DNA from: Roridomyces roridus
Taxonomy: Eukaryota; Basidiomycota; Agaricomycetes; Agaricales; Mycenaceae
Length of the DNA stretch: 64,000 bases
Assembly: GCA_029378245.1 (NCBI GenBank)
Contig: JARKIF010000039.1
Location: 310,001-374,000 of the forward strand
Direction of reading: 5' to 3'
Shown here piece by piece: positions 2,545 through 30,532 of the stretch (within the stretch, counting starts at the first letter, position 1; each line of letters opens with the position of its first letter). The translations under genes and the position numbers were made by a program. Below the pieces are notes generated by a model. It had not been told where the DNA came from, searched no databases, and worked only from the letters and a program-made list of their open reading frames with translations.

Positions 2545-3100
2545 TGTATCTCAGCCTGAAGAACCGTGGTCCCGACGACTTGGAGGAGGGCATCTTCCAA
2601 ATGGCGTGCGAGACCATGCTGCTGCCGATGGAAGAGAAACTTCGCTTCGAGGCGACGAGAAGCCACGGGGGCCAATGCAGTCGATGCGACCGGACAGCCG
2701 GACACGGTGGAATTAATCAACGTCGCAAAGGACGACGCCCTCGCCTGGCCTCAAAAAGCCCGCCACGCGTATCCGTCGACGGTGTACGCGCACTGGAAGA
2801 ATGAATCACGCCCTTTGTCAAGAAATCAAGAAATCCATGGAAGTCAACGATACCATCCTTCAGATATTCAGCGATCGGCTCGGTCTGCCTCCCAATGCTC
2901 TGAAGAAGAGACACTTGGTGGACGAATACAGCGGTAGCCAAACTCGTGTGATCAAGAATCCCCCTTCCCCGCAAGAGCCTCCGAAAGTCGCGATCGGGGC
3001 TCATACGGACTTTGGCAGTCTCTCGCTCTTGCATAGTCGGCTTGGAGGACATCTTGTGGCAGTCGACGCGCGCGCAGGACGGTATACCCAACACGGTAGA
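2545..3100 (+). pseudogene. 2-oxoglutarate/Fe(II) oxygenase remnant (isopenicillin-N-synthase-like)
   Basis: Three overlapping frames must be joined to give one recognisable protein. Frame one (about 2550-2660) matches the part before the core (ACETMLLPMEEKLRFEA). Frame two (about 2655-2805) continues with GQPDTVELINVAKDDALAWP. Frame three (2801-3075) carries SDRLGLPPNALKKRH, a conserved SQTRVIKNPPSP stretch and the iron-binding pair in GAHTDFGSLSLLH. Homology ends just after that point, so the second iron-binding His and the 2-oxoglutarate Arg are missing. In this family the enzyme hydroxylates or desaturates small molecules using iron and 2-oxoglutarate. With two frame changes and a lost C-terminus it cannot make an active enzyme. 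Frame shifts by assembly error are possible but would not restore the end. Confidence 0.75.
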
Positions 3101-3558
3101 CGCCGTTGGGAGGAGGCCTGGCGTCGAATCACTTAACGAGTACACCAGCAACTTGAAGTAGATTTTCTTTGCAGTCACATGTCACGACGCCAGTGGATGA
3201 GTTACCGGATGAGTTGGTGTGGGTTGGCGTGAACGCAACAGAAAAGAAAGCAACGCCGCAATGGTACGGACTATGTAGCATGAATGGAGAAAGATGACCA
3301 GTGATCAGAGTGTCGTCCTGCATGATTGTAGAATGGAGGAAGACTGTAAGGCAGGTGCATCAGCTTCGGTGAGAGCATTGCCAGCAAGGCATTAAGGAGA
3401 GCCGTGTGTGAATAGCTTGTCCAGAGCTCGGTGTACACGGAGAGCTTCGAGCCTTCGACTTCATCATTCGCTTTGACCCCAGAAATTGTTATTTATACGT
3501 CTTGAGAGAGTGTCTTGCTCTCAGGGGGACACGATGCTGCTTCAATGATTATGTTTTG

Positions 3559-3943
3559 TAGGGTGCTGTTTTTAATGCCTGTTTGCAAACCGGTTTATAA
3601 ACCGCTGTTTATAAACCCGGTTTATAATGTTTCTCGACGGATGTTCGGTTTATAAACGGCACACAGGATCAATCTGATACCATCAATCGTGCTGATGGCA
3701 GTCTGATGAGTGTTCTACTTGCTCAATGGTGGGTCAAAGCCCAGTCAGAGCTTATGGAAACTCACAGAGGCACGTCAGAGGCTCCACCGTCCGGGGAAGG
3801 TGAAAATAGTTGACAAATGGCTCTCAGAACCGTGAATTTCCTCTTCTGCTATTCGGTTTATAAACTGGTTTATAAACGCCCTGTTTGCAAATCAGGTTTG
3901 TAAACCGGTTTTTAAGGGTCTGGGAATTAAAAACAGCACCCTA
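3559..3943. mobile_element. hAT-like MITE
   Basis: The 385 bp element has ends TAGGGTGCTGTTTTTAA and TTAAAAACAGCACCCTA and is flanked by the 8 bp duplication ATGTTTTG (3551-3558 and 3944-3951). The other arm of the big inverted repeat carries the empty site (a single ATGTTTTG followed by aacgcc, read on the minus strand near 21740). An 8 bp duplication with TAGGG-type ends is characteristic of the hAT superfamily. Inside, near both ends, several copies of GGTTTATAAAC-like palindromic motifs occur, as expected for subterminal transposase-binding sites. It encodes no protein. Confidence 0.9.
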
Positions 3944-4023
3944 ATGTTTTGAACGCTCAGGCCCCCCTTTTCCGGACGAGATTTTGGGGAGAACCGTTGA
4001 AGAGTCCGCAGTCGTAGGAAGGT

Positions 4024-5347
4024 CACTGTGAGACCCGGGGGACATGATTTTCATGTACCCCGGGTACCCCCAAATCATGCACCGATGCCATGAAACTCAC
4101 GTGAGGGTGGTCGAAAATCACCTCCTCCTCCATGAAATGTGAATAACCAATTCATGTCCGTTTTCGACGTTTTCATGTACCGAATTCATGTTCCCATGAC
4201 ATGAAAATGACTGGGAACTGAGTGGGTTTGATTTTGAGCAATGCAGCTTCCTAATGAATACTATTCCTGAGGGACTGAATTTCGGATGAAAGGAATATGA
4301 ATTTCAAAGTAATGTAGCTAATACAAGGAAGTGCTACCAGCAGCCCGCCCGCTATTGCTTCCACCACCACCGGGACTCAAGAGCCACACACGCATCACCG
4401 GATTCGAAAAGATCAACCTGCGGCTGGATGTCAGATCAGAATGCGGCTCGAAGGTGTACACTAGTACACACCTCAAGCAGTGGGAGGCCACAGTAGCGGC
4501 GTCGTAGATGGGGAGGGAATCAAGCTCAAGGACAAAAGCCATAGAAGGGCACATACCTGAAAGAAGCGAGCTCTGGCCCCGCCATCGACTCGAGAAGCTT
4601 GAGGACATCAAGTTCGTATCCGGTCAACAGATCGTAGCAGGATGAGCTCGTGACGCACCTGAGGTCAACAGTGATTGGAACACTGGGTCCCAAGAACCAA
4701 GCCCTACACTCAGTCGAGACAGCCACAGCGGCTTCTTGTGCTGTCTTCAAGCTGTCGTCCGAGGTTCATGATGTGCAGAGTGGAAGGGCATCAAAGGGTC
4801 CAGACGTTGATATTGCAATGAAGTACTGTCGACAGGGGGCTCCTGGGGAGAAGAGAGTGGAGGAGAGGTACATTGAAGAATGGGGGGGAAGGCGACATGA
4901 GGGTTGGGAGGAAGGAGTGGAGCGCCGTGACAGACGTGACACCACTGACCTCATCCGCAGCATGGCTCCACACCGGCCTTCCCACAACTTTCCCAAGTCC
5001 TTCTCCGTGCAAATATCTCACTGTGCAACAGCGCGGTCATCAAGGGACGTCCAGACGGGGTATAGGTTGATCGAAGAAGACCCTGGCTCGATCAATGTTC
5101 ATTTCCATCTTGCTCCCTGATTTTCATGTGTTTCTCCCATGATTTCGGCTTCACCAATTCAGCGGAATTGTTCCTGATTTTCACCGAAGAGGCCATGATT
5201 TGATACATTGTACGGACTCTGTAAAAATCGCAAATTAACGTCTGAAGTACCCGAGGTATTTGATCTGTTCATTTCAGGCCATAGACTGTGATTCTGCTTG
5301 TTCATGGCACGGCGACATGAAATTCATGCGCCGTTGTTTTCACAGTG
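4024..5347. mobile_element. CACTA (EnSpm/CMC)-like non-autonomous element
   Basis: The 1324 bp insert begins CACTGTGAG and ends TTTTCACAGTG, with the 3 bp duplication GGT on either side (4021-4023, 5348-5350). The empty site GGTAACCAG is preserved in the right arm. A CACTG start and a 3 bp duplication fit the CACTA superfamily. Both ends carry many TTCATG/CATGAA motifs in both orientations, like the subterminal repeats of that group. Frames of 97-156 codons inside have no transposase signature and overlap one another on both strands, so I treat them as chance frames. Confidence 0.85.
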
Positions 5348-6018
5348 GGTAACCAGAAGATGCGGGCAACAAGCGGGGGCGCAGAGGATTCGAGGGAAGG
5401 GATAGCTCCTTGTTGCTCCAGGAGAAAGAACACAGAGATTGGGTTGGTGGGGAGCGGAGGCAAAAGAGAATATCAGATCAGCCGACACGGCGTGCCGAGT
5501 CAGGGTCGTGTTTGTTTGTTTGTTTGCAATTTCCGAAACCTCTTGTTCTTGACCACCACCGTCGTTGGCAATCAAAGCTTCTCAGATGCTCAGGCAGTCT
5601 CCGCTCTCTCAATGCAAGCCCGAATCAACCCAAGTCGAGTAACTTCCCGAGACGGCTGGAGACGCAATGGTCTTGGTCCGTGGTTTGGCCGCTGGCGCAC
5701 TTCGCGCCTGTCCTCCAAAGCATCACTGGCCCGTGTCTATCTCGAAGGTCAGCACGAGAATGCGCGGCGTGCGCGCGTCAAGACGGTGCGCATGGATGAG
5801 TGCGCTGCTCGTCGACTATATCCGTCTGTCGGAACTTGTGGAAACAAACGCTCAAGATGCTCGGCCGTCTAATTGAGAGGAAGGTATCTCCGTTTGCAGA
5901 ATGTAATGGGGGTACAAATGCGATATTGATATACACAAATCGAGCCGGTTTCTATTGGACAGAGTGAGCACTGTGGAGCAAGGACGGACGATAAAGACGA
6001 ACAGAATATAAATGATCC

Positions 6019-7594
6019 TTATTTACTTAGGTCGCTGATGCCTGGCGACGCGTCAGCCGTGAAAACGATAGAGGGCAAATTGACGGACCTGCTCAGCATG
6101 TGATCGCGCAGACCCTGCTCACTGAACGAGCGACGCGAATGTGGACATTCTGGGCAGAGCATTGGGCGCGTTGTTTCAGGGGCTTTTGTTGCTTTGTGCC
6201 TAGCAAAAGTTTAGGTGTCGGTTGAGGCTGGTGGAAGGCAACTCGCTTATGAGAAGACACTCCGTCGGCTCGCAACTCGTTGCATTGCTCACAGCGGATT
6301 CTGTCGCCAGGCCGCGCAGGCATGTTGGGCGGGAGCACGCCAGCTTTCATCCATTCGAGCTGGGCGAGGGTAAGGCGACGAATCTGGGCCCATACTAATG
6401 AGGTCGTGAGTCCTTTATTCACGAGAACAGAAAACACGAACCCGTGGTGGTAATAAGCTCCAGATCACGATTGAACGCGTCAAACACGCTGAGCGCTGCC
6501 GGACATCGCAATACGCCTTGGACCTTCTTGTTTTCCGCCATACACATGCTCTTCATGCTGTTGGATGTCAGTGGGGTAGGACAGGATGCCAAGCGACGTA
6601 CAATGAAAGGTTGGCACTCTTGACGACAGCCTTTTCTACGAGGTACGCGATTTGCCAGGATTCGAGGGCCTTGGCGTTCTGGGGAGCATTGAGCTTCGGA
6701 AGTAAAACGTCGAGACAAACCACAACTTGAGAAATCTTGGACCGATCCAGGGCTCGCAGTGCACATTCCTGCATGAAAAAATGAGCGGAAGAAAAGACAT
6801 TTATAGAGTCACCCACCGCGTCCAACTGTTCGCCTCGGTCGACGACCAGCGCTTGTTCTCGTTTGTTTTCAGCATCCTTGATCGCGCGTCGGGAGTATCG
6901 GTAGACGGTCCCGCCGTTGGGAAGGGTGCACGACTCGCGAGGCAGCCAATTTCCCCACGACAGAGTAGTGTATTTGTGTCGTTTATCGTGCCACATCGAG
7001 TTGCCGCTGAAATTGTCGGCCTTGGTTTGAAGAGTTGGCTAACACTCACTGGAGGAGCATTCCCCTGCATTCGGCCTGCTTCAAACGTGAGAATGGGATG
7101 GCGCAACACGGAGTCAAGACCCACCGAGCAAGCCCGAAAACGGAAGAGAAAATGGCAAGGTTGGGAGTCTGTCCATGCAGAGCAACGCTGCACCGTATTG
7201 TTGAATGGATTTGGGCATTGAAATAGCATACAAACTGTGCAAAGACCGCCGCCGAGCAGCCAGAACGCATAGGCCGAGGGAGAGTAGTTTCTGCTGGCTT
7301 CAACAACGGGAGGTGGGGGTAGTCTTGAGCAGTTCCCGCGGGACATATTTCCATAAGATGATTCCCAGAGACGGTTGGTTTGAATGAATGCACGCAGAGA
7401 CTTTGAAGTGCAAGAGAGTTTGGCCAGATCGAACGGACCGCAGAAGCTAAAAATCTAGACATAAATGTGATCCCAAAGACGAGGAAGACGCGCACAACAC
7501 GCACATGAAATCCGATATCCAACGGAATTTCTTTGCAGACAAGCACTGAAGTCGAGTCGCTGGTTGGGAATCGAGCTGGATGGAAGTCGCGCAT
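6019..7594 (-). CDS. F-box / zinc-finger protein A, left-arm copy
   Basis: This is the mirror copy of the right-arm gene at 18886-20464; see that entry for domain order. It reads outward from the palindrome, with the start at 7594 and the stop at 6019. Splicing is needed: the first donor lies right after the codons for DIGFH, and the second exon carries the helix LAKLSCTSKSLRAF. It differs from the right copy only toward the 3' end. One Cys of the C-terminal Cys/His finger reads Arg here (PHSRRSF instead of PHSRCSF), one codon is missing just before the end, and one substitution lies near 6536. F-box proteins of this kind are taken to be substrate-recruiting subunits of SCF ubiquitin ligases; the substrate is unknown. 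Confidence 0.6.
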
Positions 7595-7684
7595 GAGAGA
7601 GAGAGAATGACAGCTGTGTGAGCGCCGAACTCGCTTGATCACTGATCATGACCACCATGTCCTGGGTCGTCTCCTGCTCTTCTC

Positions 7685-8273
7685 AGTACTAGGGCTCGCG
7701 CTCGTCGTTGTCTGCAACGGTCACCGGCGATACAACGCTCCTCCTCCGGTGTCTCGATCTCTCCATTCTTCCAGTGGCACTTCTGCGTTCCCGAGTCAAT
7801 CTCCGAGTAAACAAATTATTTGCTGCGGGTATAAAAACCCAGCCTCTCGGCGGCTGACACTCCAATCTTCTGCTTCTGACTCTCGTTGTCCTCAATTCGC
7901 GATCCGTCCTCAAGGATATGGGGTGCGCAGGCGTACATGTGGGGTGGATGGACGTGGTGCAGTTATCACTCTGGGAGAGCTTCCGACAGGTGCAAATCTG
8001 TGCCGAAGCATTGCACCAGCTCCCAGGTGGACTGTCACTGCGGTACTATCTACTGGCAAACTCACTTCCCAGACTCGGCGAGGTCGGTGGGGCGGGGGAA
8101 CAATCCCTTGACGGTACGCATTCTCTTCGTCGCTGTGCCCTCACTCATCCCTTTCTCCCAGCCCGGGGTAGTCAGTAGATAGTTTTCCCGGGGGATGGGC
8201 TCGCAACCCTTCGCGCTCCCTTGTCGTGGGCCCCGGGCTTGAGACTCGCAAGAGTCGACCAAGCGCGCGAAAA
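7685..8273 (+). repeat. Dispersed TATA/intron/3'-block module, copy a
   Basis: This is the best preserved copy of a family seen six times in the window. In order it has a conserved ~140 bp upstream block, a TATA box (TATAAAAA at 7830-7837), a GC-rich start region (cggctgacactcc), a short coding part, an intron (donor gtacgcatt near 8113, acceptor ctcccag near 8161), and a final exon ending in codons for Gly-Ser-Gln-stop. A conserved 3' block follows at 8168-8273, GC-rich and ending gcgcgcgaaaa. From ATG 7918 the frame would give about 75 residues, with LWESFRQV and HQLPGG recurring in other copies. It lies between the divergent F-box genes A and B, pointing toward B. Confidence 0.65.
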
Positions 8274-8982
8274 TTCTGCATTCATGTATCTCTCTACCCT
8301 TCTAATGCAATTTTTTACTTCGAAAACCGAGTCTCTATCCAAAGAAAATGAGAGGACTAGCGACGCAGTCAGCCAGGCCCGGGCGGCCCGATGAGGACAG
8401 AAGCATCAACGTCAACGGCCGCGCTTCCACCACCATCTCGATTCTTAACCTCAGCTGCATTGTCGACGCAAGCAGACGACCATGGGCCTTCAAAATTGAC
8501 AAATTCACTCCGAGCTATGACGACAATCTTCTCTGCATCTCGGACAACGGTCTATGATGTCGCTACTGGCAAGAGAAAAAATTGGCCAGGCTGACGGTGT
8601 ACATCTGTGCGTCCGTGTCTTTCTTTCTGGTTTAATTCTGGGGACTCATTGTTGAACAGGCACAACCACCGTCGTTTGTCGCGCGCTTCACCCAAGCTTC
8701 ACCGTCGCACGACGTGATCAAGGTCCCAATACCCCGTGCCAGCCTTCTCCCCCGTCTTTTTTGACATCTAGTCGTGCGCTGGGAAGTCGCTTGTCCGTTG
8801 CCTGAGCAGGTGCCTACGCATCCCATTCTGAGACAACTTTTTGGCTGATGGAATGGACAGTACTTATTGCAACTTTTGACGCTGGTCGATCAACCCTATA
8901 TGTTGATTTGTCAGTTTCGACCACGTCTTCGAGCCCCGCTCATTCCACACCAGCTATCTCGCCCTCGCCCTTTCAAAGTGTA

Positions 8983-10547
8983 ATGGCTCTTCTATACAAC
9001 CCGCCAAAACTCGTGGACGTAGTCTTGTTGGTCAGTGCCTGTTATTTGCTGGAGTTGGCTACTGACATCCCGTCTTCCAGACCTCTTTGTACTGCTCCCC
9101 AAACGACCTACTTCAGCTACGAGCAACGTGCAGGAGGCTCCGCCAGCTATTGTCCGACTCGCTCGCCTGGTCTGCTGCTCGCCGCAACACTCACGGCGTA
9201 CCTTCACCACCTGAAGGCTTCTCCGAAGTCGCGTGGGCGAGCCTCCTTTTCCGCTCGAAGGCTTGCTCGGTGCGTAAGAGTTTGTGCATCTGAATAGGCT
9301 TTCCCGACACATATCCAGGAATGCGGCAGCGCTTACGTCGGTATACCGGAGTGCTTCCCCTTGGGCATCCAGTGCTGTTCGGTGAGTTCGTTTGGACGTG
9401 CTCGCGCATTTGTTGAACTCTCCCAAGGACCTGTGTCGTGAACGCATTACCTCGTATGTTGATTATATGTGTGTAGCGACTTTCTGTCGTGCTCATCAGT
9501 CTCTCCAGCGGCCAAACGAGGCAACATCGAGCTCGCTGGGTTTTCCTTTATGCCATTCGGGAAAAGTTCTGCTACGACGCTCTCCAACTTCACCGCTGGA
9601 TACCGAGACCCAAGGAGGTACTGGCAGGAAAGTTCATACCTGCCGAGGCCGCGCTAGCTGCAGACCGCGAGTACAAGGAACGGCCGTCAGACGAGGCGTT
9701 CTTCCAGGTGCAAAAGTCGTGCCGATTCCGTTTTGAACTTGAGCTCACATTTGTAACAGGAGCACTGGCGTCGCCAGGCAGTGATCGGCGCTTGGACCAA
9801 GGTATGCTCACAACCTCATTCCAGGCTTGGCTGCGCGTGAAACATGTCTATACAGACCCACGTCGAGTTGCTGCGATGGAAGGCTCGGTTCGATTCGATT
9901 GACCTGGATCGGGTGAACCGCACGGTGTAAGCCCCCTTTTTTGAGATTGAGGATGCATTCAAACTCTTTTGCAGACTCTTCCAATATGCGTCATCCAAAG
10001 GCCTCCGTGGTGCCGACGTTGTCAGATCACCGACAGTCAAGGACGTCTTCGCTCTCTTCGAGCGGGACAAAGCGCTTATCTGGAATCCCCATGGTCCGAT
10101 CTTCCTTCATCTTGGCTACATCTGTCTTGACCCAGTTTCACAGTACTCGACCTTCGCACTCTGAAGATGGATCTCGACCTGCTCGACTACCACACTAGAT
10201 TGTTCCAGGATACGCGGACCCGGATGGACAAAATCAAGTGCAGTGTCTGTGAGCGCATGGTGCCAACAGATGATTTCGAATATCACTGTTATGACCGGTG
10301 AGCTAATACCAGGAATGTGAACAACGGCTTGCTAATTATCCCGGCAGGCATCCTGACTTCAGAGTGGAGTGTTTGCGGTCTTGCAAATTCGACTCGCTGG
10401 TCACTCCGGAGGAGCTTGTTGATCACACTCTTGACTGGTGAGTTGGCGATGACTAGCCACTGTGGCGCACAGCTCATCACGCATACCAGTCACTCGTTAT
10501 ATCGCTTACAAGAAGGGGATTTTCACTCGAGATACTACCTTTCGTAG
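8983..10547 (+). CDS. F-box / zinc-binding protein B
   Basis: Exons can be followed from ATG 8983: exon 1 (PPKLVDVVLL), an intron with donor gtcagt after TTG TTG, then an F-box helix region with DLLQLRATCRRLRQLL. A short Cys-rich exon follows (ECGSAYVGIPECFPLGIQCC). A long helical part reads on to about 10160. A treble-clef-like stretch then has KCSVCERMV and a paired His (YHCYDRHPDF), and the gene ends HSRYYLS-stop at 10547. The order F-box, Cys pairs, Cys/His finger is common in mushroom F-box proteins, probably SCF adaptor subunits. Near 10160 the frame after STFAL must shift to reach KMDLDLL, so there may be a frameshift or an intron I could not place. Its first 230 bp are inside the palindrome arm, the rest in the spacer. 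Confidence 0.6.
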
Positions 10548-10599
10548 AGTCAATGTATATATATTTTGCCGAACTTCTGTCGTTTGATCTGGAACCTTC

Positions 10600-11479
10600 A
10601 TGTCGTCCCGTCCCACCAACGAAGAGATTGCCAGCCGGACAACTACCTTCGCACTCGCTCTTTTTCAGCAGCATACCAGAGGCTCCCGACGTCTCGCCAG
10701 TCCCATTGACCTGGCCCAGGTGGCAGATGATTTCGGTTCGGGCTGGCCAACGTCCGCGATACACTCACACGCGGCACAACTCTGGACTTGGAACGGGCAC
10801 ATTCTTTTCGAGGCAGCCGTGACCAAAACTATTCGTGATAGATATGGCGGTTTCGCCGCCTCCCCTTCAATGGCCTCCAGGGTGCGTGCGCCATCTGTAT
10901 ACTCATTGAAGGAATACCGACAACTTGATTTACTTCAGCTCATTGTAGACTCAATGTCGGACACACCAGCCACCACTTTTTACGCCCTCTGTTGCGGTAG
11001 AGAAAAGCCCCAAATTCCTTTCGATATGCACAACACTTTCTATGCCGCGATACACCACCTCTCGCTTCGCCATTCTATTCCGGCGGTGCATGCTTGGGTT
11101 AAGGATAATATTTCGGATCTCATTTTCGAGACGCTGGCGTATGTCCTGCCTCTCATGGACGAGTATGTCCTCAATTTCGCGCCGGGAGTCCTTTGCTAAT
11201 TTTCCTTTCTAGCGTTCGCCCAGCGCCGGGTGTTCCCTGTGAGTTCCTCGCTCTAGCAACCCATAGCTTCGCTAGAAATGCTGGTCAGATCCTTTTGTTG
11301 AGATGTCCGAGTACTGGCGGGCACTGAAGGCCCTCGAAGACGGCGAAATCGTCGATCGCCCTGGCCGAGGACGGCGGTCACCAGATCGACAGGTCAGTTC
11401 ATCGGTTCTGCATACCACTGACATTCATCTCACCTATCTACAGATTGCTCCTCTCCCTCGACGATGGGACAAGTCGTGA
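10600..11479 (+). CDS. Unrecognised spliced gene in the palindrome spacer
   Basis: Four exons give a 242-residue product: 10600-11162, 11213-11238, 11289-11392, 11444-11479, all with GT-AG borders and consistent phase. The protein starts MSSRPTNEEI. It is mixed helical, with a Trp-rich stretch (SAAQLWTWNGH-type) near residue 65 and a basic tail (RPGRGRRSPDRQ). No transmembrane segment or signal peptide is visible. It starts only 52 bp after the stop of F-box gene B and meets the RNase III-like gene tail to tail, overlapping its last codons. I do not recognise the family. The long unbroken first exon and clean introns argue that it is a real gene. Confidence 0.55.
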
Positions 11480-13375
11480 AGGAGACTGGGGCTCAGTGCT
11501 GCGCGTCGCCGTGTTTCAGGAAGGAAGGGTTGATTTAACAGCGATTGAATGTGCAAAATGTAAGATACCACACTCGTTTTGTAGACAACGGCATATATTC
11601 GATAAGAAGAACTAGTGTAAATTCTCTTTCCCCCCTGCGGGCCGACTCTTCGCTTTGGACTTGCTGCCGCCAGCGATCCCGTTCGCAAGTCTGTGGCAGC
11701 GTCAGTCTTTATCAAATCGTTGGAAACAACCACGAACGTCGCCAGGACAATAGGCCGATCAAACGAAGCAGTAGGTGACGCCGGCGCGGAATCCAGCACT
11801 GAGAGTATCGATTCAAGATTGAGAGCAAAGGGCGGGAGTGTAGCGAATTCGGAACGTGTGGTAGAAGTCTGGCCGGACGCAAGCGAGGTCGCAGAGGGAG
11901 CAAGCGTGAGCTGTGCGGGGGCAGGCGTCTTGGATTCGATCCGCCTACGTTTCACAGCACGGTCTGGGCTGCTGGTATTCATGGTCTTGCGCTTGCCGTT
12001 GTCGAGCGCGGCTAGAGCGACAAGGATGAGAGGCCGGAACGCCTTCGTAACCCAATTCTGGATGACGCCGTATTCGTAGTCTTCCAGGAGGGCACCCAGC
12101 ACCGTCTCAAACGCATCCCCGGCGGTCTTGTCAGGCCTGGTGCGTTTGAGGATATCGAGAGCGTCCATGAACTCGCCCATGACGTTGTTGGTCCCGAGGG
12201 CCCGTGCAATGATCTACAAAGGCTGAGAGCGCCGTTGTGCGGGGAGAAGAGTAAAGGTCGTACCCGGTGGAGATCTATTCGATCCGGCAGAACTTCACGG
12301 AGAGCCACCTGGATGAGTCCGTAGAAGGAGCGATCGCCATAGTATTCGAGACCACCGCGCACTCCATGGGAGTGAGAGACTGTCGCCAGCTGCAGACCCT
12401 CGTGTCTGAACGGCGGGAAGGGCGTCGCTTGGTCATAGTGGACCCCCAGCCAACCAGTCACGAAATCAGAGGCATATACCACTATGAAGGCCCTTGGTGG
12501 ACAAAAGGTGTTTTCTTGTTGCCAGCACCATCATTTCCGTGACATCTTCGAAGATCTTGCAAGATTTGGCAAGATTTTCCAGTTTGTTCAAGATCTTGGA
12601 AGATATTGGATGATTGTCAACTTTCCCTGGCATTATTTTACCATCATCTTGCAAGATCTTGTGAATTTTCTCCCCCCAGGACCTTGAAAGTTTGTGCAAG
12701 TTCCACTGACTCATTTTGACTCCACTGATTTGCAGCGAATGTTCAAAGATTTTGAAGGATTGAAAGTCAAAATATGGCCCATTGAGTCTAATAGGGATGC
12801 AAGATCTCACCAGAGTTGGTGGTGCCGTGGTGGCCGAGCTCAAGCCGCATACTGCGATCAATCATTTATGTTGAAGGGCGCAAAAGTGTGATCTATCAGT
12901 TTCCTGGCGGTTCGGCTGCCAACGGATCAACAGCCTGAGTGGGGGGCAATCAGAAAATCATTGATTGGCATGTGGGATTTACTGCGACACTTGCCGCCTT
13001 TAACCTTCCAAGATCTTGTGACACACCACAGAATTTTTGATTCCAGTGTCAATTTTTTATCTGTTTCCACTTGTTGTCTGACTCACAAGATCTTGCATCC
13101 TTGCAGTGCAGAAAATATCACTTGAACCCTCCTTGAAATACCACATCGTGCAAAAACTAGCAAGATATCAATGGATGTTGCAAGAACTTGATTCAACTTT
13201 CAAAATGAGCCAAATCTTTCAAGATCTTGAGACTTTTGTTGAGATTTGAAGAAAGAACCACACATGCCTGCACAATTCCAGGTTTTGTCCACCAAGGACC
13301 CTCAAATACCACAGCATTGATTTCCTCCTGCCGATCAGGCTCGCCGGGAGGCACTGTGTACGAGCGTTGGGTCAT
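11434..13375 (-). pseudogene. RNase III-domain gene interrupted by a MITE
   Basis: Read from ATG 13375, the first 70 coding bases run to the target site of a MITE (12483-13305). Coding resumes at 12475, crosses a 50 bp GT-AG intron (12214-12263) and continues to the stop at 11434. Taken with one copy of the target duplication, the two halves of exon 1 add to a whole number of codons, giving about 353 residues. RNase III signatures are clear: LEYYGD with the first Glu/Asp pair, and KTAGDAFETVLGALLED with the Asp-Ala-Phe-Glu of the second metal site. A Lys/Arg-rich patch (VKRRRI) follows. There is no double-stranded-RNA-binding domain in the remaining tail. With the 823 bp insert the frame is shifted, so the gene is probably inactive unless the insert is spliced out. 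Family members cut or bind double-stranded RNA. Confidence 0.65.
12483..13305. mobile_element. MITE inside the RNase III-like coding exon
   Basis: The ends are inverted copies: left GGCCCTTGGTGGACAAAA after TATGAA, right (reversed) GGTCCTTGGTGGACAAAA after TTGA. The 7 bp sequence ATACCAC flanks both sides (12476-12482, 13306-13312). Removing the element and one ATACCAC joins the host gene in frame, so the insertion borders are well supported. The body is full of CAAGATCTTG-type palindromic decamers and close variants, near both ends. There is no coding capacity. The superfamily is uncertain: a 7-8 bp duplication would fit hAT or a relative. Confidence 0.85.
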
Positions 13376-13573
13376 CGAAGAAAGAGAACAGTAAACCATT
13401 GTTGCTCTTCTGCGGACGTATAAGAGAGTGGGTGGAGTGAGTTCTGGGGATATGAGAGGGTGGGGTGAGCGAATGTGGGCCTTGACCAAGGAATGGCGTT
13501 GGGTGAGTTTCTTGAAAACGATGAAGGCTTCGATTCTTGACTGTTGTGGCTTGACTGTTGTGGGTAGGAGCAA

Positions 13574-15004
13574 TAGTCTCGGAAACCCAGACGTTCCTCG
13601 CATTCTCACAGCGGGACTTACGGCTGATTCTCAGTAGCCGGATTTAATTCCTAATCTGTAATTTCGACTGATGGATGAGACATTTGATTGATCGGCTATA
13701 TGTGTGATGGGAGAATTGGCGCTAGAACGTCTGGGCCGGTCGTCGCTGTGTTACCTACCATCAGCGTGACGTGGCGTGTAACACCATTATTCCCATCGCC
13801 AAATCATGGTCCCCGCTTGATCCTCTCAACTGCCGCAGTGAGGAAAGCCCAAATGGACTAGCCAGACAGACTAGACTTCGAAACATACTAGGGTTTGCCA
13901 TACAGACAGTAAGAGACATGAGATCTGAGCTCCCCCACTCATTCATTGGTGCCTTGCACTTGGGTTTCGGAGCAGGGCACTTTGTTCTCGGAGCAATGTA
14001 CAACTTGTTTTCCCTACAAGTACCGTGCCAGAAATTTGATGCCAATTTGGGATAATGAAGGCCCGAGTCATTTCCGAAGTGTTGTGGCGGGTGCTTGGGA
14101 CGCGGGGAAGGCATTAACGAGCGCGGGGAGGGCAGGGAGCGCAGCCGGAAGCGCGGCAGGCAGGCGGCGGGTGATGTGGAGCAAGAGTGACGCCTAGCTG
14201 GCGCACGCCTCCCCCCCAATGACATGTCCAAAAAAGGCTAATCGGATTGATATCAAGGCACGTGGGGGTTTCTTGGCATTTACTGGGACTGTGACGCCAC
14301 GTGGCGGCCACTAACCAATGTCCCAGTGGCTCTGCGGTTCCGGTGTCCCATCGTCATGATCCTTCATTTCTTGAATGTCTCGAGTTCAATTCTTGGTGCT
14401 GGTCAATTTTTTTGTCAGCATTTTGTTATTCTACAATGAGAGAAGGGTGGGTTGGTTGGTTAGGCTCAGTTGAATGACATTGTCCTACCCAGACTGTCAA
14501 TACCTCCCCCGCAGCCTCGGCTGTGAATACCCCTCTGAGAATCCACAGTGAATGGGCAGTTAGGTACAGTATCCACGGTGAATGGGTGGCTAGATCTGAT
14601 AGACCAGGTTCAAGTTAGGCTCAGTTGGTTAAGTTAGGTTGTTGGAGCTTGAGGAGCTTGAGGAGGCTAGGGTGGAATTTACAGAAAAAAAGAACTGACC
14701 CCACACTGTATCGAACTCACGCAAGACAAATCACATGACCTTATCGGCTGTCACATGACCTTATCGGTGTCATTGGGGGGGAGGCCAAGGGGGTTTGTGA
14801 CGCCTCCATCACGCTGATGGTAGGTAACACAGCGACGACCGGCCCAGACGTTCTAGCACCAATTCTCCCATCACACATATAGCCGATCAATCAAATGTCT
14901 CATCCATCAGTCGAAATTACAGATTAGGAATTAAATCGGGCTACTGAGAATCAGCCGTGAATCCCGCTGTGAGAATGCGAGGAACATCTGGGTTTCCGAG
15001 ACTA
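13574..15004. mobile_element. MULE-like non-autonomous element with ~200 bp TIRs
   Basis: Positions 13574-13775 and about 14808-15004 are inverted copies with a few mismatches. The 8 bp flanks AGGAGCAA (13566-13573) and AGGAGCGA (15005-15012) match at seven of eight bases. The terminal nine bases TAGTCTCGG are the same as those of the element at 447-1361, so the two probably use the same or a related transposase. The centre (about 1 kb) has no credible gene. It holds repeated short motifs such as gttaggctcagttg and two copies of cacatgaccttatcgg. Arm mismatches suggest an older insertion than the 447-1361 copy. Confidence 0.82.
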
Positions 15005-16760
15005 AGGAGCGAAAGGTGGAGTGATGTGATCACGACTTGTAACCGGCGCTGCTCAATCCAAGCTGCTCATCAGGCCTCAGCGCTCAGCACTGGAGGAACC
15101 TTCGCAAATGCAGCTCACCTTGAAGCACGGCTAGTCCAAAGGTCCTCACGATTTCATCTTCGACAGCCGGTCAATCTTCTGGTCCCTGTCAGAGCTCGAG
15201 AACGCAGAGGTTGTCGTTGGTGGCCTCGGGCCATTCTCCCAAAACTGACGAAGAGATGAGAATTGGGTGACAGTGAGATGCAGGGCGGCGTCGGCTACTA
15301 ATCCGAATCTCCTCTGCCAACCATTTCGCTCAGTACTAGGCCTCACGCTCGTCGTCTGCAACGTTCCCGGAGATATAACACTGCTCCTCCGGTCCCTCGA
15401 TCTATCCATCCTTCCAGTGGCGGATCAGCACACCGACCGCCTTCGAGTCCTGCCCTGTAACATCACCATCATGCACTGGACTTTGTCTTCAATGAAGATG
15501 ACAATCTCCTTTGTGGCGACGACAATCTCACGACGCAAGGAACAAGCTGGTCCCAGAGATTGAAATGCGTCTCGTGCGTGGGTTCCTTTGAAACTGCTTT
15601 TGCTGGTTTGACTCTGGCGCAGGTAGAGTACGCCATTTCGAATCGACTTGCCTTCTGTGTTCTCTGGAGAATTGTCCGGGTATTGTGGCCTTCACAGGTG
15701 CGTACTCGTTTCATCTTCAATTTACTCGGCTGACTTGGGCCAGTCTTGTAGGCTGGCGAGATGGCTGAGGACTTGCGGCAAATGCATATACAGCTCGTCC
15801 ATCCGCGCCATGCGGCCATCTCATGATTGTTCAATTTCGATGGTGGATCCTGTATCTCGACGCCGAAGATTGTCTTCCGTTCTGTCCTCTGGATTTGAGA
15901 CCGCCAGTCTGTCCTACCGCAACCATGGGTGCGGCTAGATCATGCACAATTTCGCAGGCAAGCTCACGCCGTTGGGGGACACTGGCAGTCCCAAAGCTCG
16001 CATCATTCAAGGTAGTAGGCTGTTCTCTTTGACCATAGCGTCAGTTTCTGACTTTTACACAGAATGTACAATGCCCGATGCTAGCCAACAGGTCATGCAG
16101 CGCAGCGCGCTGGTCCAGATCTGGCATATCCAGCACTCTCCTCCCTCGGGTTTGGATGGCACATGCACTTCGCCCTCATGCGTTGAGAGCATCCAAAACG
16201 GAGTGCTTATCGTCCTGCTGGCCCACACCTCCTCATACTGCGTTCATTGGCTTGCTCCACCTTTCATAACTGCGCGAGCACGATGCACTTGTTCCGCAAC
16301 AGTTGCAGCAGGCCCAAGTCAAGCGTGATTCTGACAAGAGGGATTCTCTCAAAAGGCCTGCGGATGTAGCGATCTCTCTGACTTGAAAGCTCCTCGAATC
16401 CACTCAAGGAGACCATCGACTTCCTAGTTCTCCAGCAACATATCTCGTGATGGTGGCTATCTCTGCCGCTATACACCCTCGCCGACGGCAGCCTCGTCTA
16501 CTGGTGTCGCGGTCGAACGTGCTCAGGCGATCAACGTCTTCAATACAAACACGCCGATGCACATCGGACCTTGCGAGCGCGCGTCAAGTGAACAGGGTCT
16601 GTGCGACCGTGACCAGAAACCAAGGAACAGGTCAGTCGTATTCGTTACATGGATTCTGTCGAACTGAATCCGACCGCAGGCACCAGACCTCATTCTCAAG
16701 CGGGGAAGGCAGACACACGATTCGGGAGAGTTCCCAATGTAGTTATTCAAGAATTGAATC
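15005..16760. other. Decayed coding region and partial dispersed module
   Basis: Positions about 15332-15425 match only the upstream block of the dispersed module family (tcagtactaggcctcacgc, then ctcctccggtccctcgatct), with no TATA or 3' block after it. From 15610 to 16480 several plus-strand stretches look like exons. One reads VEYAISNRLAFCVLWRIVRV, followed by donor gtgcgt near 15699. No continuous gene can be built and I recognise no family. A similar phrase (tcgaccatagcg...tctctgact) recurs near 25990, so both may be remnants of one gene type. Confidence 0.35.
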
Positions 16761-16763
16761 ATA

Positions 16764-17497
16764 TTAATATTTCCGTTGTTCCACATTGAGTCGTTTGCAA
16801 GCGGTATTGTAGATATTGAATCCATAAAATATTGATCCCAAAGCAGGAGATGTATGTAGAGATATACGTGTAGTGTGAAGTCGATGGCAAAGGGAGCAAT
16901 GGGCTGTGGGCACGTCGTATTCTAACAGCTCTCCTTCCCTTCCACTGGACCAGCAAACCGAGCATGCGAGGTACCAGTGTGACGGTGCGCTGAGGTGACG
17001 ACCCTGCAGAAAGATATCAGAAATGGCATGATTTGAGGGAAACACATACACGGAGAGCGGCTGTGGTTTCGAGTCGGGCATTGGAGCACCTTCGGGTAGT
17101 TTCAAGAAAGCGAGGAGGGTGGCTAGTTGTGCAGTGGCGTGGGGTAGCGTAGTGGGTGTAGCGGCAGGAGACGTAGCGGCAGGAGAGGTAGAAGAAGGTG
17201 TGCAGCGCCGCTTGGCCGAGTGTTCTTTGTCCTCGCCGTCAATTCCGCATTTCTGGGGCCTTGGCATGAGTGGTGAAGGTACGCCGTGATTGTTGCGGCG
17301 AGCAGCAGACCAGGCGAGCGAGTCGGACAATAGCTGGCGGAGCCTCCTGCACGTTGCTCGTAGCTGAAGTAGGTCGTTTGGGGAGCAGTACAAAGAGGTC
17401 TGGAAGACGGGATGTCAGTAGCCAACTCCAGCAAATAACAGGCACTGACCAACAAGACTACGTCCACGAGTTTTGGCGGGTTGTATAGAAGAGCCAT
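16764..17497 (-). pseudogene. Truncated F-box B copy fused to foreign tail at the palindrome junction
   Basis: From ATG 17497 the minus strand repeats the first two exons of F-box gene B (PPKLVDVVLL, then DLLQLRATCRRLRQLL). At 17270 the match ends in mid exon, after codons for GVPSP. The reading frame then continues without a stop into unrelated sequence: a basic, Ser/Pro/Thr-rich stretch (HSAKRRC, then repeats of SPAAT), a helical part (AQLATLLAFLKLPEG) and two Cys pairs (YLACSVCWSS, HCSLCHRL), ending at 16764. The foreign part resembles the region after the RNase III domain in the neighbouring gene (basic KRRR patch, then Pro/Ala/Ser), but this is a weak impression. Whether the fusion is expressed cannot be told from sequence. 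Confidence 0.5.
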
Positions 17498-18206
17498 TAC
17501 ACTTTGAAAGGGCGAGGGCGAGATAGCTGGTGTGGAATGAGCGGGGCTCGAAGACGTGGTCGAAACTGACAAATCAACATATAGGGTTGATCGACCAGCG
17601 TCAAAAGTTGCAATAAGTACTGTCCATTCCATCAGCCAAAAAGTTGTCTCAGAATGGGATGCGTAGGCACCTGCTCAGGCAACGGACAAGCGACTTCCCA
17701 GCGCACGACTAGATGTCAAAAAAGACGGGGGAGAAGGCTGGCACGGGGTATTGGGACCTTGATCACGTCGTGCGACGGTGAAGCTTGGGTGAAGCGCGCG
17801 ACAAACGACGGTGGTTGTGCCTGTTCAACAATGAGTCCCCAGAATTAAACCAGAAAGAAAGACACGGACGCACAGATGTACACCGTCAGCCTGGCCAATT
17901 TTTTCTCTTGCCAGTAGCGACATCATAGACCGTTGTCCGAGATGCAGAGAAGATTGTCGTCATAGCTCGGAGTGAATTTGTCAATTTTGAAGGCCCATGG
18001 TCGTCTGCTTGCGTCGACAATGCAGCTGAGGTTAAGAATCGAGATGGTGGTGGAAGCGCGGCCGTTGACGTTGATGCTTCTGTCCTCATCGGGCCGCCCG
18101 GGCCTGGCTGACTGCGTCGCTAGTCCTCTCATTTTCTTTGGATAGAGACTCGGTTTTCGAAGTAAAAAATTGCATTAGAAGGGTAGAGAGATACATGAAT
18201 GCAGAA

Positions 18207-18793
18207 TTTTCGCGCGCTTGGTCGACTCTTGCGAGTCTCAAGCCCGGGGCCCACGACAAGGGAGCGCGAAGGGTTGCGAGCCCATCCCCCGGGAAAACTA
18301 TCTACTGACTACCCCGGGCTGGGAGAAAGGGATGAGTGAGGGCACAGCGACGAAGAGAATGCGTACCGTCAAGGGATTGTTCCCCCGCCCCACCGACCTC
18401 GCCGAGTCTGGGAAGTGAGTTTGCCAGTAGATAGTACCGCAGTGACAGTCCACCTGGGAGCTGGTGCAATGCTTCGGCACAGATTTGCACCTGTCGGAAG
18501 CTCTCCCAGAGTGATAACTGCACCACGTCCATCCACCCCACATGTACGCCTGCGCACCCCATATCCTTGAGGACGGATCGCGAATTGAGGACAACGAGAG
18601 TCAGAAGCAGAAGATTGGAGTGTCAGCCGCCGAGAGGCTGGGTTTTTATACCCGCAGCAAATAATTTGTTTACTCGGAGATTGACTCGGGAACGCAGAAG
18701 TGCCACTGGAAGAATGGAGAGATCGAGACACCGGAGGAGGAGCGTTGTATCGCCGGTGACCGTTGCAGACAACGACGAGCGCGAGCCCTAGTA
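18207..18793 (-). repeat. Dispersed TATA/intron/3'-block module, copy b
   Basis: Mirror image of copy a within the right arm, base for base the same: 3' block at 18207-18312, TATA box read on the minus strand at 18643-18650, ATG at 18562. It lies between F-box gene A (right copy) and the truncated B copy, pointing toward the latter. Confidence 0.65.
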
Positions 18794-18885
18794 CTGAGAA
18801 GAGCAGGAGACGACCCAGGACATGGTGGTCATGATCAGTGATCAAGCGAGTTCGGCGCTCACACAGCTGTCATTCTCTCTCTCTC

Positions 18886-20464
18886 ATGCGCGACTTCCAT
18901 CCAGCTCGATTCCCAACCAGCGACTCGACTTCAGTGCTTGTCTGCAAAGAAATTCCGTTGGATATCGGATTTCATGTGCGTGTTGTGCGCGTCTTCCTCG
19001 TCTTTGGGATCACATTTATGTCTAGATTTTTAGCTTCTGCGGTCCGTTCGATCTGGCCAAACTCTCTTGCACTTCAAAGTCTCTGCGTGCATTCATTCAA
19101 ACCAACCGTCTCTGGGAATCATCTTATGGAAATATGTCCCGCGGGAACTGCTCAAGACTACCCCCACCTCCCGTTGTTGAAGCCAGCAGAAACTACTCTC
19201 CCTCGGCCTATGCGTTCTGGCTGCTCGGCGGCGGTCTTTGCACAGTTTGTATGCTATTTCAATGCCCAAATCCATTCAACAATACGGTGCAGCGTTGCTC
19301 TGCATGGACAGACTCCCAACCTTGCCATTTTCTCTTCCGTTTTCGGGCTTGCTCGGTGGGTCTTGACTCCGTGTTGCGCCATCCCATTCTCACGTTTGAA
19401 GCAGGCCGAATGCAGGGGAATGCTCCTCCAGTGAGTGTTAGCCAACTCTTCAAACCAAGGCCGACAATTTCAGCGGCAACTCGATGTGGCACGATAAACG
19501 ACACAAATACACTACTCTGTCGTGGGGAAATTGGCTGCCTCGCGAGTCGTGCACCCTTCCCAACGGCGGGACCGTCTACCGATACTCCCGACGCGCGATC
19601 AAGGATGCTGAAAACAAACGAGAACAAGCGCTGGTCGTCGACCGAGGCGAACAGTTGGACGCGGTGGGTGACTCTATAAATGTCTTTTCTTCCGCTCATT
19701 TTTTCATGCAGGAATGTGCACTGCGAGCCCTGGATCGGTCCAAGATTTCTCAAGTTGTGGTTTGTCTCGACGTTTTACTTCCGAAGCTCAATGCTCCCCA
19801 GAACGCCAAGGCCCTCGAATCCTGGCAAATCGCGTACCTCGTAGAAAAGGCTGTCGTCAAGAGTGCCAACCTTTCATTGTACGTCGCTTGGCATCCTGTC
19901 CTACCCCACTGACATCCAACAGCATGAAGAGCATGTGTATGGCAGAAAACAAGAAGGTCCAAGGCGTATTGCGATGTCCGGCAGCGCTCAGCGTGTTTGA
20001 CGCGTTCAATCGTGATCTGGAGCTTATTACCACCACGGGTTCGTGTTTTCTGTTCTCGTGAATAAAGGACTCACGACCTCATTAGTATGGGCCCAGATTC
20101 GTCGCCTTACCCTCGCCCAGCTCGAATGGATGAAAGCTGGCGTGCTCCCGCCCAACATGCCTGCGCGGCCTGGCGACAGAATCCGCTGTGAGCAATGCAA
20201 CGAGTTGCGAGCCGACGGAGTGTCTTCTCATAAGCGAGTTGCCTTCCACCAGCCTCAACCGACACCTAAACTTTTGCTAGGCACAAAGCAACAAAAGCCC
20301 CTGAAACAACGCGCCCAATGCTCTGCCCAGAATGTCCACATTCACGTTGTTCGTTCAGTGAGCAGGGTCTGCGCGATCACATGCTGAGCAGGACGTCCGT
20401 CAATTCGCCCTCTATCGTTTTCACGGCTGATGCGTCGCCAGGCATCAGCGACCCAAGTAAATAA
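18886..20464 (+). CDS. F-box / zinc-finger protein A, right-arm copy
   Basis: From ATG 18886 the first exon ends in DIGFH at 18975. A 50 bp GT-AG intron (18976-19025) leads to exon 2 with FSFCGPFDLAKLSCTSKSLR, a classic F-box helix pattern. A Cys pair (LCTVC) follows. Later coding parts include MWHDKRHKYTTLSWGNWLP (from 19484) with donor gtgggt and acceptor ctttt...gcag. They also include SKISQVVVCLDVLLPKLN, and a C-terminal stretch with CEQCNE, CPECPHSRC and a paired His (LRDHML), a probable zinc finger. Stop TAA at 20462-20464. The middle exon borders are tentative. It is probably a substrate adaptor of an SCF ubiquitin ligase; the target is unknown. It faces away from the dispersed module copy b. 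Confidence 0.6.
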
Positions 20465-21106
20465 GGATCATTTATATTCTGTTCGTCTTTATCGTCCGTC
20501 CTTGCTCCACAGTGCTCACTCTGTCCAATAGAAACCGGCTCGATTTGTGTATATCAATATCGCATTTGTACCCCATTACATTCTGCAAACGGAGATACCT
20601 TCCTCTCAATTACACGGCCGAGCATCTTGAGTGTTTGTTTCCACAAGTTCCGCCAGACGGATATAGTCGACGAGCTCATCGTCTCAGCTCGCTCATCCAT
20701 GCGCACCGTCTTGACGCGCGCACGCCGCGCATTCTCGTGCTTACTGGTGGGCCCAGGACCTTTGAGATAGACACGGGCCAGTGGTGCTTTGGAGGACAGG
20801 CGCGAAGTGCGCCAGCGGCCAAACCACGGACCAAGACCATTGCGTCTCCAGCCGTCTCGAGAAATTACTCGCCTTCAACACAGGTCCAGACGATATCGTG
20901 TCCCTGGGATGGAACGAGGAAAGAAAGACAAAGCGGCAGGCCGGACAGAGGCTTTCCCTTCCAGAAAAGGACCGCGACGCCCGTCGTCAGCAAGAAGCCT
21001 TGCATCACAAGTCCAGAAGAACAAGATAATCTTGGGCTAGACTTGGGTTGATTCGGGCTTGCATCGAGAGAGCGGAGACTGCCCGAGTATCTGAGAAGAT
21101 CTGACA

Positions 21107-21446
21107 TCAGTCTTTTGACAAAGATCTTGCGACCTTTTTGGGCTTGGCAGCTTGTGGCACAAGCTCGCAAGGTCAAAGCGAGGGTTAAAATCCCGGAAAT
21201 GGTTGAAAGTGGGCTGAAAAAAGGTATTAGCGAAGGAGGAGATACACTGAGAGGCAATGGAAGCATGTACCAGTCAGATCCAGGGTCGAAGGAAATAAAT
21301 CTGTGTGGTCCGATGGGAGTCGAACGAGGGACCTTGCGAGTTTCAGGACCTGGCTTGTGAGCTTGCGGGCTTGCGCAGATTTGGCGGGCGCTTGCGGGCT
21401 TGAATGACCTTGTACAAGGTCACAAGCTAGATGTCAAAAGTCTGAT
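21107..21446. mobile_element. Small inverted-repeat element in the right arm
   Basis: The ends ATCAGTCTTTTGACA and (reversed) ATCAGACTTTTGACA bound about 340 bp that is absent from the matching place in the left arm (near 5570-5585). The target duplication is unclear, at most 2-3 bp. Inside, on the minus strand, is a stretch like the B box of a tRNA gene (GTTCGACTCCC near 21310-21320) and repeated caagcccgcaag motifs. A SINE-derived or tRNA-derived insert is possible, but no full tRNA fold is seen. Confidence 0.55.
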
Positions 21447-21879
21447 GGATTGCCAGTGGCCTTGGTGGGAAACATTGCAAACAAATAAACACAACCCTGA
21501 CTGGCACGCCCTGTCGGCTGATCTGATACATATTCTCTTTTGCCTCCGCTCCCCACCATCTAAATCTCTGTGCTGTTTCTCCTGGAGCAGCAAGGAGCTA
21601 TGCCGTCCCTCAGGCTGTACGGGCCCATGCTTCTTGCCCACATCTTCTGGTTACCTTTCTCCAGCGGCGAACTACTATCCGGCGGTTCTCCCCCAAATCT
21701 CGTCTGGAAAAGGGGGACCTGGGCGTTCAAAACATAGTCATCCTTGAAGCAGCATCCTGTCCCCCCGAGAGCAAGACACTCCCTCAAGAAGTATAAATCA
21801 CAATTTCTGGGGTCAAAGCGTTGAAGCGAATGATGAAGTCGAAGCTCTCGAGATCTCCGTGTACTCTACGCTCTTGAAC

Positions 21880-22395
21880 TTTCAACCGCACACGAGTCGT
21901 CCTTTCGCCTTGGTCGTCGTGCTTCCACTGGCCCTGATGCGGCTGCCTCCCAGGTTGTCTGGACTTTCCAATCACACAGGACAACAGAACATCATATTTC
22001 CACAGTCATCCTGCTTAGTCCGTCCCATTCCGGCTTGGCTTTCTTCTCTCCTGCGCTCACACTAACACATACCAGCTCATCCACTAGCGTCTCTGTCACT
22101 GCAGCGTTGACTTCCTGGTGTATTCGTCAAGTGATTTGACCCCGAATGCCCAACATCCTTCGAAAACACGGACAGGGAAACTACGACTTCAAGAAAGCCC
22201 AAACGTAGTTGTGTGCGCGCCTCGACCTCCACAAGACAATGTGTCCCCCGTCCTCGTGGCGGACTTGGTGCTCTTCAAGTCCATTCTTTTGCCCATCGCT
22301 GCGCGGGGTCACTGACTCACTCGTCGGGATGGAAGTTGGGCACTATCACTCGAAAAGTCCAAAGAGAACAGAATATATTGAGAAAGTTACAACCA
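21880..22395. other. No confident gene
   Basis: Short plus-strand frames only (65-117 codons), without motif or convincing introns. Confidence 0.3.
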
Positions 22396-23220
22396 CTTTT
22401 CGCGCCTTGGTAAGTTCCCGAAACGAGAACCGCAAGCTCGGGGCCCACGACAAGGGGGCGCGAAGGACGGTGAGCCCATCCCCGAGAAACTACCTACTGA
22501 CTACTTCTCCCGAGCTCCTTCAAACGGCAGCGACGAGGACATATAGGCGAGGGTATCAGTAACAGTGTAAAGACGAAGAAGAGGACGAAAACGCACCATG
22601 AAAGAGAACCCGAAGACAAGCCACCCCCTCCTCCTGCTGCGCCGGTAAAACAGTACACGGGGAAGCCTACATTCGTCCTCCCGGAGTATCCAGTCGTGGT
22701 ACTACTCCCGCCGCAGAGGTATCGATGTGGAGCCCACGCCCGGAGCAGGATTCATCGAGGGCGTTGCGCGAACTTGATGTATAAACGAAGTCTGGGAGAG
22801 GGTTAGACAGGGTGCATGTGAAGAGAATGAAAACGAACCTTGAGGTCTTGAATCTTGAGGAACCCACGGTCTTGAGTCTGGTAAAGGGCGCGGGTCAGCG
22901 ACGATAAGCTGGTGTAAGCGAGAGAAGTACCTTGAGGCAGCCTTGAGGTCTTGTGTCTAGCAGCGGGCGAGGGTGAGCCACAGTTCGAACGGAAAAATGA
23001 GAGAGTACCTTGAAGAGATGGTAGTGGTCAAGAGGCAAGAGCCCTGGAGTGTCAGCCACCCGGCGGCTGGCATTTTATACCTCGTGTCGTGACAAACAAT
23101 TTTTTTGAATTCCTGGCTCGGGGACTGGATCAGGAATCGCGGGTGCCTTTGTGTCGCGCAGCTGCCAATAAGTTTTTTGAATGGTCAACTCGGGGCTTGG
23201 CTCGGGGAAGCGGGAATGCA
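22396..23220 (-). repeat. Dispersed TATA/intron/3'-block module, copy c
   Basis: Minus-strand orientation. The conserved 3' block is at 22396-22505. TATA box (gtataaaatg read on minus) near 23070-23080, then the shared phrase gccgg..ggctgacactcc. The last codons again read Arg-Ser-Ser-Gln-stop before the block. The middle is longer and unlike the other copies, with several tcaagac/ccttgag repeats and possible extra introns. No F-box gene follows it directly. Confidence 0.55.
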
Positions 23221-23350
23221 TTGGAATGGAATGAAGGTCCGAATTAGGATGGCGAACAAACAACCACCCACAAACTTCTTCGGTGCCAACGATTCATACG
23301 AATTACAATCCAAATGTACATACACGCATTTCTATTCTGAAGCCATCTAC

Positions 23351-24616: not shown

Positions 24617-24619
24617 GGC

Positions 24620-27060: not shown

Positions 27061-27062
27061 AT

Positions 27063-28356: not shown

Positions 28357-28452
28357 ATTGGATGTATGCCGCAATGCTCGTTCAGAAGATGCAATCCTGG
28401 CAGTGACCGGGTAAGCACACGCAGTCAGCTCGGAATCAATGAAACTACAGTA

Positions 28453-28602
28453 CTGTACCATTTCGACCGTAGGTTCATCAAAATTATGTAATTTCTCGAC
28501 CGAGAAGGCCGAAAAAATTTCTTTTGAATTATGGTGATTTTTGCACACATCAAAAAAAGTTGGCTGTGACCTGTGACTGAACTTACGGTCGAAATGGTAC
28601 AG
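28453..28602. mobile_element. Tc1/mariner-like MITE upstream of F2
   Basis: A 150 bp hairpin element with ends CTGTACCATTTCGACCGTA and its reverse complement, flanked by TA at 28451-28452 and 28603-28604. A TA duplication and CTGT start fit the Tc1/mariner superfamily. It sits about 100 bp upstream of the start codon of the pseudogene F2 and has no coding capacity. Confidence 0.75.
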
Positions 28603-30175: not shown

Positions 30176-30532
30176 AATTCTGTATCATACTAAGTATTTG
30201 ACAAAATTGAGCTAATGTTGACTGACCACAGGCTGAGTGATTCAGACCAGGAAGCACGGCGAGTGCCTTTCAAACAAAAATGACGGGTCGTACCCTTTGT
30301 TTCTGGATAAGTCATGTTAGATCATGGTTGCCACCGTATTTTGAGCAAGTTTCGCACCGTTTCCAGCTGCTTGGAGACGCTAGACACAAAATATGCGGTT
30401 AGACGCAAATCAAGGACTGGGATGATGGTGGCACGAAAGAAGGAGCGACAGGCTCACGTGCCCGGGGATATCAATGTCCTCATGCGTGTCGCGTGGCGGA
30501 AATAATGGATTGCAAACTAATTCGACAGGCTA

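Follow-up and report, generated by a model that had tools for sequence, protein, structure and literature searches.

We found that an inverted repeat in an F-box gene cluster of Roridomyces roridus has near-identical inner arms on each of two haplotypes, and that the spacer between these arms lies in opposite orientations in the two haplotypes as assembled, with collinear near flanks. We consider it very probable that this locus is an old inverted duplication of F-box genes, in which conversion between the arms homogenizes their inner parts and crossovers flip the spacer. The stretch analyzed, referred to here as the window, comprises 64,000 nucleotides (C323:310001-374000) from an assembly totaling 90.8 Mb across 501 contigs; positions are those of the window unless a contig is named. 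The inversion polymorphism is an addition to the preliminary description of this DNA, whose reader could not see the other haplotype.

A search of the genome with a Mon2 exon (35789-37126) gave two matches, 99% identical, one each on C323 and C334, and positions 2660-59641 align piecewise to C334:1804373-1859863 at ~95-99.8% identity, with inserts on both sides. We read these contigs as parts of a two-haplotype assembly, with C323, which holds the window, as haplotype A and C334 as haplotype B, and we label the left and right arms of the repeat AL and AR in A and BL and BR in B. The near flanks (2660-3558 and 21468-28454) match C334 in the forward direction. For 59642-64000, the matches reach 68-72% within the stretch of C334 that was compared (to 1870000), and no near-identical counterpart was found in C334:1859864-1870000; thus, the collinearity of A and B ends there. 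A probe lying left of the window has 80-81% matches at C334:1864174-1864773 (plus strand) and C323:383526-384125 (minus strand), a hint that one more rearrangement may lie to the right. Upstream, reverse matches of 90-92% between C323 ~298.4-300.1 kb and C334 1745.2-1749.0 kb hint that A and B may differ by another, larger rearrangement. Also to the left of the window, an LTR-type element (C323 ~301429-309162), whose two 664-bp repeats are identical and whose target duplication measures 4-5 bp, is absent from C334, indicating a recent insertion in one haplotype. The STE3 pheromone-receptor family gave 48 exon-level matches on 12 contigs, which points to a basidiomycete, and this large number of matches suggests that the host is dikaryotic. 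A tRNA scan of the window found none.

The arms face each other across a spacer of 8059 bp in A, in agreement with the preliminary description, which had put the spacer at 8 kb and the inner 3.1 kb as free of indels with a handful of substitutions: 3123 bp align with zero gaps and five mismatches (left-arm coordinates 6130, 6132, 6136, 6536, and 9190), and the left and right coordinates sum to 26480 (Table 1). A match of 3 kb without gaps excludes chance. The outward fall in identity, with indels and arm-specific inserts, is likewise real, but it is stepped and descends to ~74%. The arm pieces are 98.7% identical at 5632-9210/17270-20875, 91% at 5572-5639/21037-21104, 84.5% at 5348-5522/21478-21655, 92% over the 53 bp at 3944-3996/21683-21735, and 73.7% at the outermost pair, with arm-specific inserts interrupting the homology. 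By zone, AL and AR differ by 0.07% (6137-9210), 2.85% (5644-6136), and 18% (5348-5643), the last value being inflated by misalignment around a right-arm insert (19 AR-only and 9 BR-only substitutions in the zone); minus left-arm positions 5522-5571, the A arms differ at 30 of 245 sites (27 arm-specific and three AL-only). C334 carries the same inverted repeat (1805617-1809181/1815402-1818966), with 3565 bp, two mismatches, and no gap. Because the structure recurs on a homologous contig, it is not an assembly duplicate confined to one contig, a possibility that had been named when the repeat was described.

Table 1. Features of the inverted repeat, its spacer, and the associated F-box genes, in window coordinates
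Feature	Position	Strand	Remarks
Outermost weak homology, left	3207..3558	+	73.7% to 21728-22082
Outer zone, left arm	5348..5643	+	Old arm-specific divergence common to both haplotypes
Middle zone, left arm	5644..6136	+	AL and AR 2.85% apart, BL and BR identical
F-box gene 1, left arm	6058..7650	-	Multi-exon, reads outward
Left inner arm (AL)	6088..9210	+	Homogenized zone, 3123 bp; strictly 6137-9210 in A
F-box gene 2	9066..10271	+	F-box part in arm, rest in spacer; spans border 9210/9211; approximate
Spacer	9211..17269	.	Inverted relative to the other haplotype, C334:1809182-1815401
Spacer ORF, 199 aa	10600..11199	+	Allelic copy on C334 opposite strand; paralogs in cluster
Spacer ORF, 248 aa	11434..12180	-	No Pfam match at E<=1
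Insert of ~820 bp, A spacer	12483..13302	.	Flanked by short direct repeat (ATACCAC)
1.4 kb element	13574..15004	.	196 bp terminal inverted repeats; imperfect ~8 bp target duplication; absent from B
Mirror F-box start	16767..17414	-	Cut at arm border, joined to other spacer sequence
Right inner arm (AR)	17270..20392	-	Reverse complement of left arm, 5 mismatches
F-box gene 1, second copy, right arm	18830..20422	+	Reads outward; mirror coordinates, approximate
Middle zone, right-arm counterpart	20344..20863	-	Limits approximate
Outer zone, right arm	21037..21655	-	363-bp block (21105-21467) where B has 37 bp
Outermost weak homology, right	21728..22082	-	Partner of 3207-3558

We aligned the four arms, which represent two haplotypes of one genome, and counted site patterns per zone. 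The outer zone provided 245 ungapped columns (5348-5521 and 5572-5643) with 31 variable sites, of which 27 have the pattern AL=BL|AR=BR and the remaining four are changes in AL alone (three) or BL alone (one). Left thus groups with left and right with right, which places the duplication before the haplotype split. Grouping is by haplotype in the inner zone (6137-9210, 3045 columns): all 10 shared substitutions and both indel events (6 and 23 bp) have the pattern AL=AR|BL=BR, and the private changes are two in AR, with none in AL, BL, or BR. The two inner arms of one haplotype (AL-AR 0.07%, BL-BR 0%) are closer to each other than either is to its allelic counterpart (AL-BL 0.33%, AR-BR 0.39%). 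Because the inner changes are haplotype-specific and present in both arms, we infer that one arm has been copied onto the other since the haplotypes split, and the ongoing gene conversion near the spacer that the preliminary description had offered as one explanation of the gradient is supported. A third grouping begins at the arm/spacer border (9210/9211), beyond which 354 columns of spacer ends contain 199 sites with the pattern AL=BR|AR=BL and four others. Likelihood trees gave (AL,BL)(AR,BR) for the outer zone, (AL,AR)(BL,BR) for the inner zone, and (AL,BR)(AR,BL) for the spacer ends, with AU p values for the alternative trees of <=1.4e-7 in each of the three.

The middle zone (5644-6136, 492 columns) is weak for topology (AU 0.036, KH and SH 0.23) and alone decides no tree. 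Its 15 variable sites comprise 13 in AR alone, one in AL alone, and one AL=AR|BL=BR, and its indel events are three in AR alone and one in AL alone. The B arms are identical to each other here and match AL; thus, BR was most likely overwritten from the left as far as ~5645. The outer limit of conversion lies at ~6136 in A and at ~5645 in B. As a polarizing sequence we used a paralog at C323:225 kb, which is ~68% identical and covers four of the shared inner sites. It polarizes two of these four (6402 is derived in both B arms and 6864 in both A arms) and is uninformative at 7615 and 7736. At the five AR-alone middle sites to which the paralog aligns, AR keeps the paralog base at two, in line with such overwriting of BR, and the paralog sides with the other arms at three, so that some AR changes are simply new.

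The inversion is seen directly in the alignment of the spacer, four pieces of which (9211-12482, 13303-13576, 15005-15938, and 15931-17269) align to C334 in the reverse direction with 98.5-99.7% identity, running from C334 1815401 down to 1809182, while no forward match of at least 40 bp was found between the spacer and C334. Both orientations and collinear near flanks are therefore present at the assembly level, and the breakpoints fall within the repeats. The course of events that we favor begins with an inverted duplication of F-box genes before the haplotype split, whose arms would undergo non-allelic homologous recombination. Non-crossover repair would copy arm onto arm (gene conversion) and keep the inner 3.1-3.6 kb near-identical within each haplotype, whereas an occasional crossover between the arms would invert the 6-8 kb spacer and so produce the opposite orientations of the two haplotypes. 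The outer parts, in which inserts and divergence specific to each arm have built up, would not have been crossed by conversion. Of the insertions seen in the window, the elements at 447-1361 and 13574-15004 have terminal inverted repeats that start TAGTCTCGG and measure 258 and 196 bp, respectively; from the length of their target duplications, ~8-9 bp, we take both to be hAT-like.

A third contig, C406 (17 kb), bears on the reliability of these observations. It is noisy: the single piece counted (9.7 kb) has 22 mismatches, 72 deletions, and 52 insertions. It follows the A order from a point ~3.1 kb outside the left edge of the window up to 14156, spanning the left flank, the left arm, and the left spacer end, and thus provides a second witness for the A-left order. 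At the 10 shared inner substitution sites, C406 is A-like at seven, B-like at one (8527), and gapped at two; of the two indels, it has the B state for the 6-bp one and, with errors, mostly the A state for the 23-bp one. The B-like positions may reflect consensus mixing or a further conversion event.

The strongest alternative accepts that conversion is real and takes the opposite spacer orientation for an error in the assembly of one contig. Mis-joins classically occur at near-identical arms such as these, which measure 3.1-3.6 kb, and C334 is the single witness of the B order. We nevertheless consider such an error unlikely for the following reasons: To fix each junction, a read of ~4-5 kb with its anchor in the diverged outer arm should be enough. 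Both contigs are long, at 511 kb and 3.6 Mb, and run collinear in the near flanks. Finally, C406 shows the A order on the left side. It is very unlikely that the homogenization of the arms is itself a consensus artifact caused by mixing the reads of the two arms in polishing. The two B-like positions of C406, in an otherwise mostly A-like left arm, are what such mixing could produce, but AR-specific bases persist at the five positions where the A arms differ (C406 has the AL base at five of five), and the 6-bp and 23-bp indels are common to both arms within a haplotype and different between haplotypes.

A two-step history without conversion, in which the old inverted duplication came first and the inner 3.1 kb was then, recently, duplicated again in inverted orientation, had been the other explanation put forward for the gradient, and the gradient in A alone does fit it. 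The four-arm patterns in both haplotypes contradict this history, and we reject it as highly improbable: because the inner changes are haplotype-specific and common to both arms, separate events would be needed in both haplotypes at the same inner junction, the outer limits of high identity differ between the haplotypes, and the outer arms retain the older left/right grouping. We find it scarcely credible that the arms belong to a mobile element, as its giant terminal repeats, and not to a host duplication. Long inverted ends do surround a spacer, and mobile-element-like insertions are common nearby, but the F-box genes of the arms have paralogs in other parts of the cluster, identity decays outward with no sharp end, and a 601-bp arm probe has no dispersed near-identical copies: its nine genome matches (nine of nine candidates scored) comprise C406, the four allelic arms, and four sequences of 68-73% identity.

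We conclude that duplication, conversion, and crossover between the arms together offer the best account of the locus. Its genes were delimited from the sequence, and their limits are approximate. The F-box is the sole Pfam match in the arms. Gene 1 matches PF00646 over the cut-off (E=3.4e-5, on the ORF at 6804-7454) and has paralogs at C323:225-227 kb and 234-236 kb, while gene 2 matches PF12937 just under the family cut-off (E=4.1e-5). A comparison of an F-box ORF with the protein collection gave 0 of 140 candidates at E<=0.001. The locus had been likened to palindromes that preserve genes by arm-to-arm copying; the likeness is partial, in that one F-box gene is present in two near-identical copies, and any preservation of function by them would be hypothetical.

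Gene 2 extends from the arm into the spacer at the A-left/B-right end. A relative of its tail lies behind, and on the same strand as, an F-box match at C334:1752464-1753101, and the DNA at 9165-10271 shares 70% identity with C323:281625-282747. Past residue 49, the sole matches of the mirror F-box start are itself and its allele. Given the near-identity of the arms, one copy of gene 2 should keep its tail in either orientation. We do not favor a functional switch of gene 2 by inversion: whichever way the spacer lies, the arm joined to this tail is near-identical. The flip looks nearly neutral, since the F-box gene cut by the border receives a near-identical arm either way. Elsewhere in the window, runs of related ORFs (409-494 aa) lie at 28877-31831 and 57994-62099, parts of which are ~68-70% alike in DNA; ORFs of the second run have F-box-like Pfam matches under the cut-off, and those of the first have none. 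The segment at 57224-57812 has 86% identity to the arm sequence at 7699-8288.

Two further near-identical inverted repeats were seen, at the assembly level, in the same F-box cluster upstream of the window. That of B (C334:1749814-1756789/1795478-1802451) has arms of ~6976 bp with eight mismatches and one gap, a spacer of ~38.7 kb, and a right end that coincides with the point where the A/B alignment stops. That of A (C323:277486-281566/282378-286458) has arms of 4081 bp with six mismatches and a spacer of 811 bp, and parts of it are 66-70% alike to gene 2 and the spacer of the window. Each contains a relative of F-box gene 2, a shared content that is partly due to ascertainment because the repeats were found with F-box and spacer-gene queries. 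No near-full-length copy of the upstream repeats was found in the other haplotype among the best 40 of 120, 40 of 450, and 40 of 116 candidates. One could picture the F-box cluster as a hot spot that repeatedly spawns and homogenizes inverted repeats, perhaps with rapid turnover and a role in recognition or conflict, where recombination of the two nuclear genomes would be suppressed by flips, but we regard this broader reading as doubtful.

The behavior of this locus is already known from yeast and mammals, and the testable features of the flip/flop class are present here at the assembly level. In the flip/flop (FF) region of Saccharomyces chromosome XIV, (PMC9731477), 4.2-kb repeats are homogenized within strains, both orientations occur, and some diploid isolates are heterozygous; the authors propose gene conversion with occasional crossover and acknowledge that they did not identify the pressure keeping the repeats alike. 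The two systems have in common inverted repeats of kilobase size (4.2 kb there, 3.1-3.6 kb here) with a duplicating gene family, homogenization of the repeats within a genome, a flanked region in both orientations, heterozygotes, and the same proposed mechanism. The present locus differs in that the arms hold F-box genes, the spacer is 6-8 kb instead of 24 kb, a gene crosses the arm/spacer border, and the outer strata are stepped with haplotype-specific limits of conversion. The yeast repeat variants were compared in independent assemblies (PMC9731477); here we compare two haplotypes of one genome. Human inversions between inverted repeats of 1.6-24 kb, described as recurrent (PMC3961182), are similar in kind, with population data there and two haplotypes here. 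Sex-chromosome palindromes keep arm identity >99% through arm-to-arm conversion (PMC3723533 and PMC8981503); unlike these, our locus has a homologous partner contig with the spacer the other way round. Among the matches listed in the open-licence literature, taken by titles and the starts of abstracts, we found no such locus in mushroom-type fungi.

Together, the adjoining zones make this one genome a natural experiment, recording in turn an old duplication, conversion since the haplotype split, and an inversion, with the limit of conversion readable to a few bases on each haplotype. Comparisons of haplotypes in clusters of this type should be read with care, as they mix differences between arms with differences between alleles. 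If the host is dikaryotic, the orientation of the spacer could be tested per nucleus, and, if our observations are confirmed, a gene cluster of another type would join the flip/flop class.
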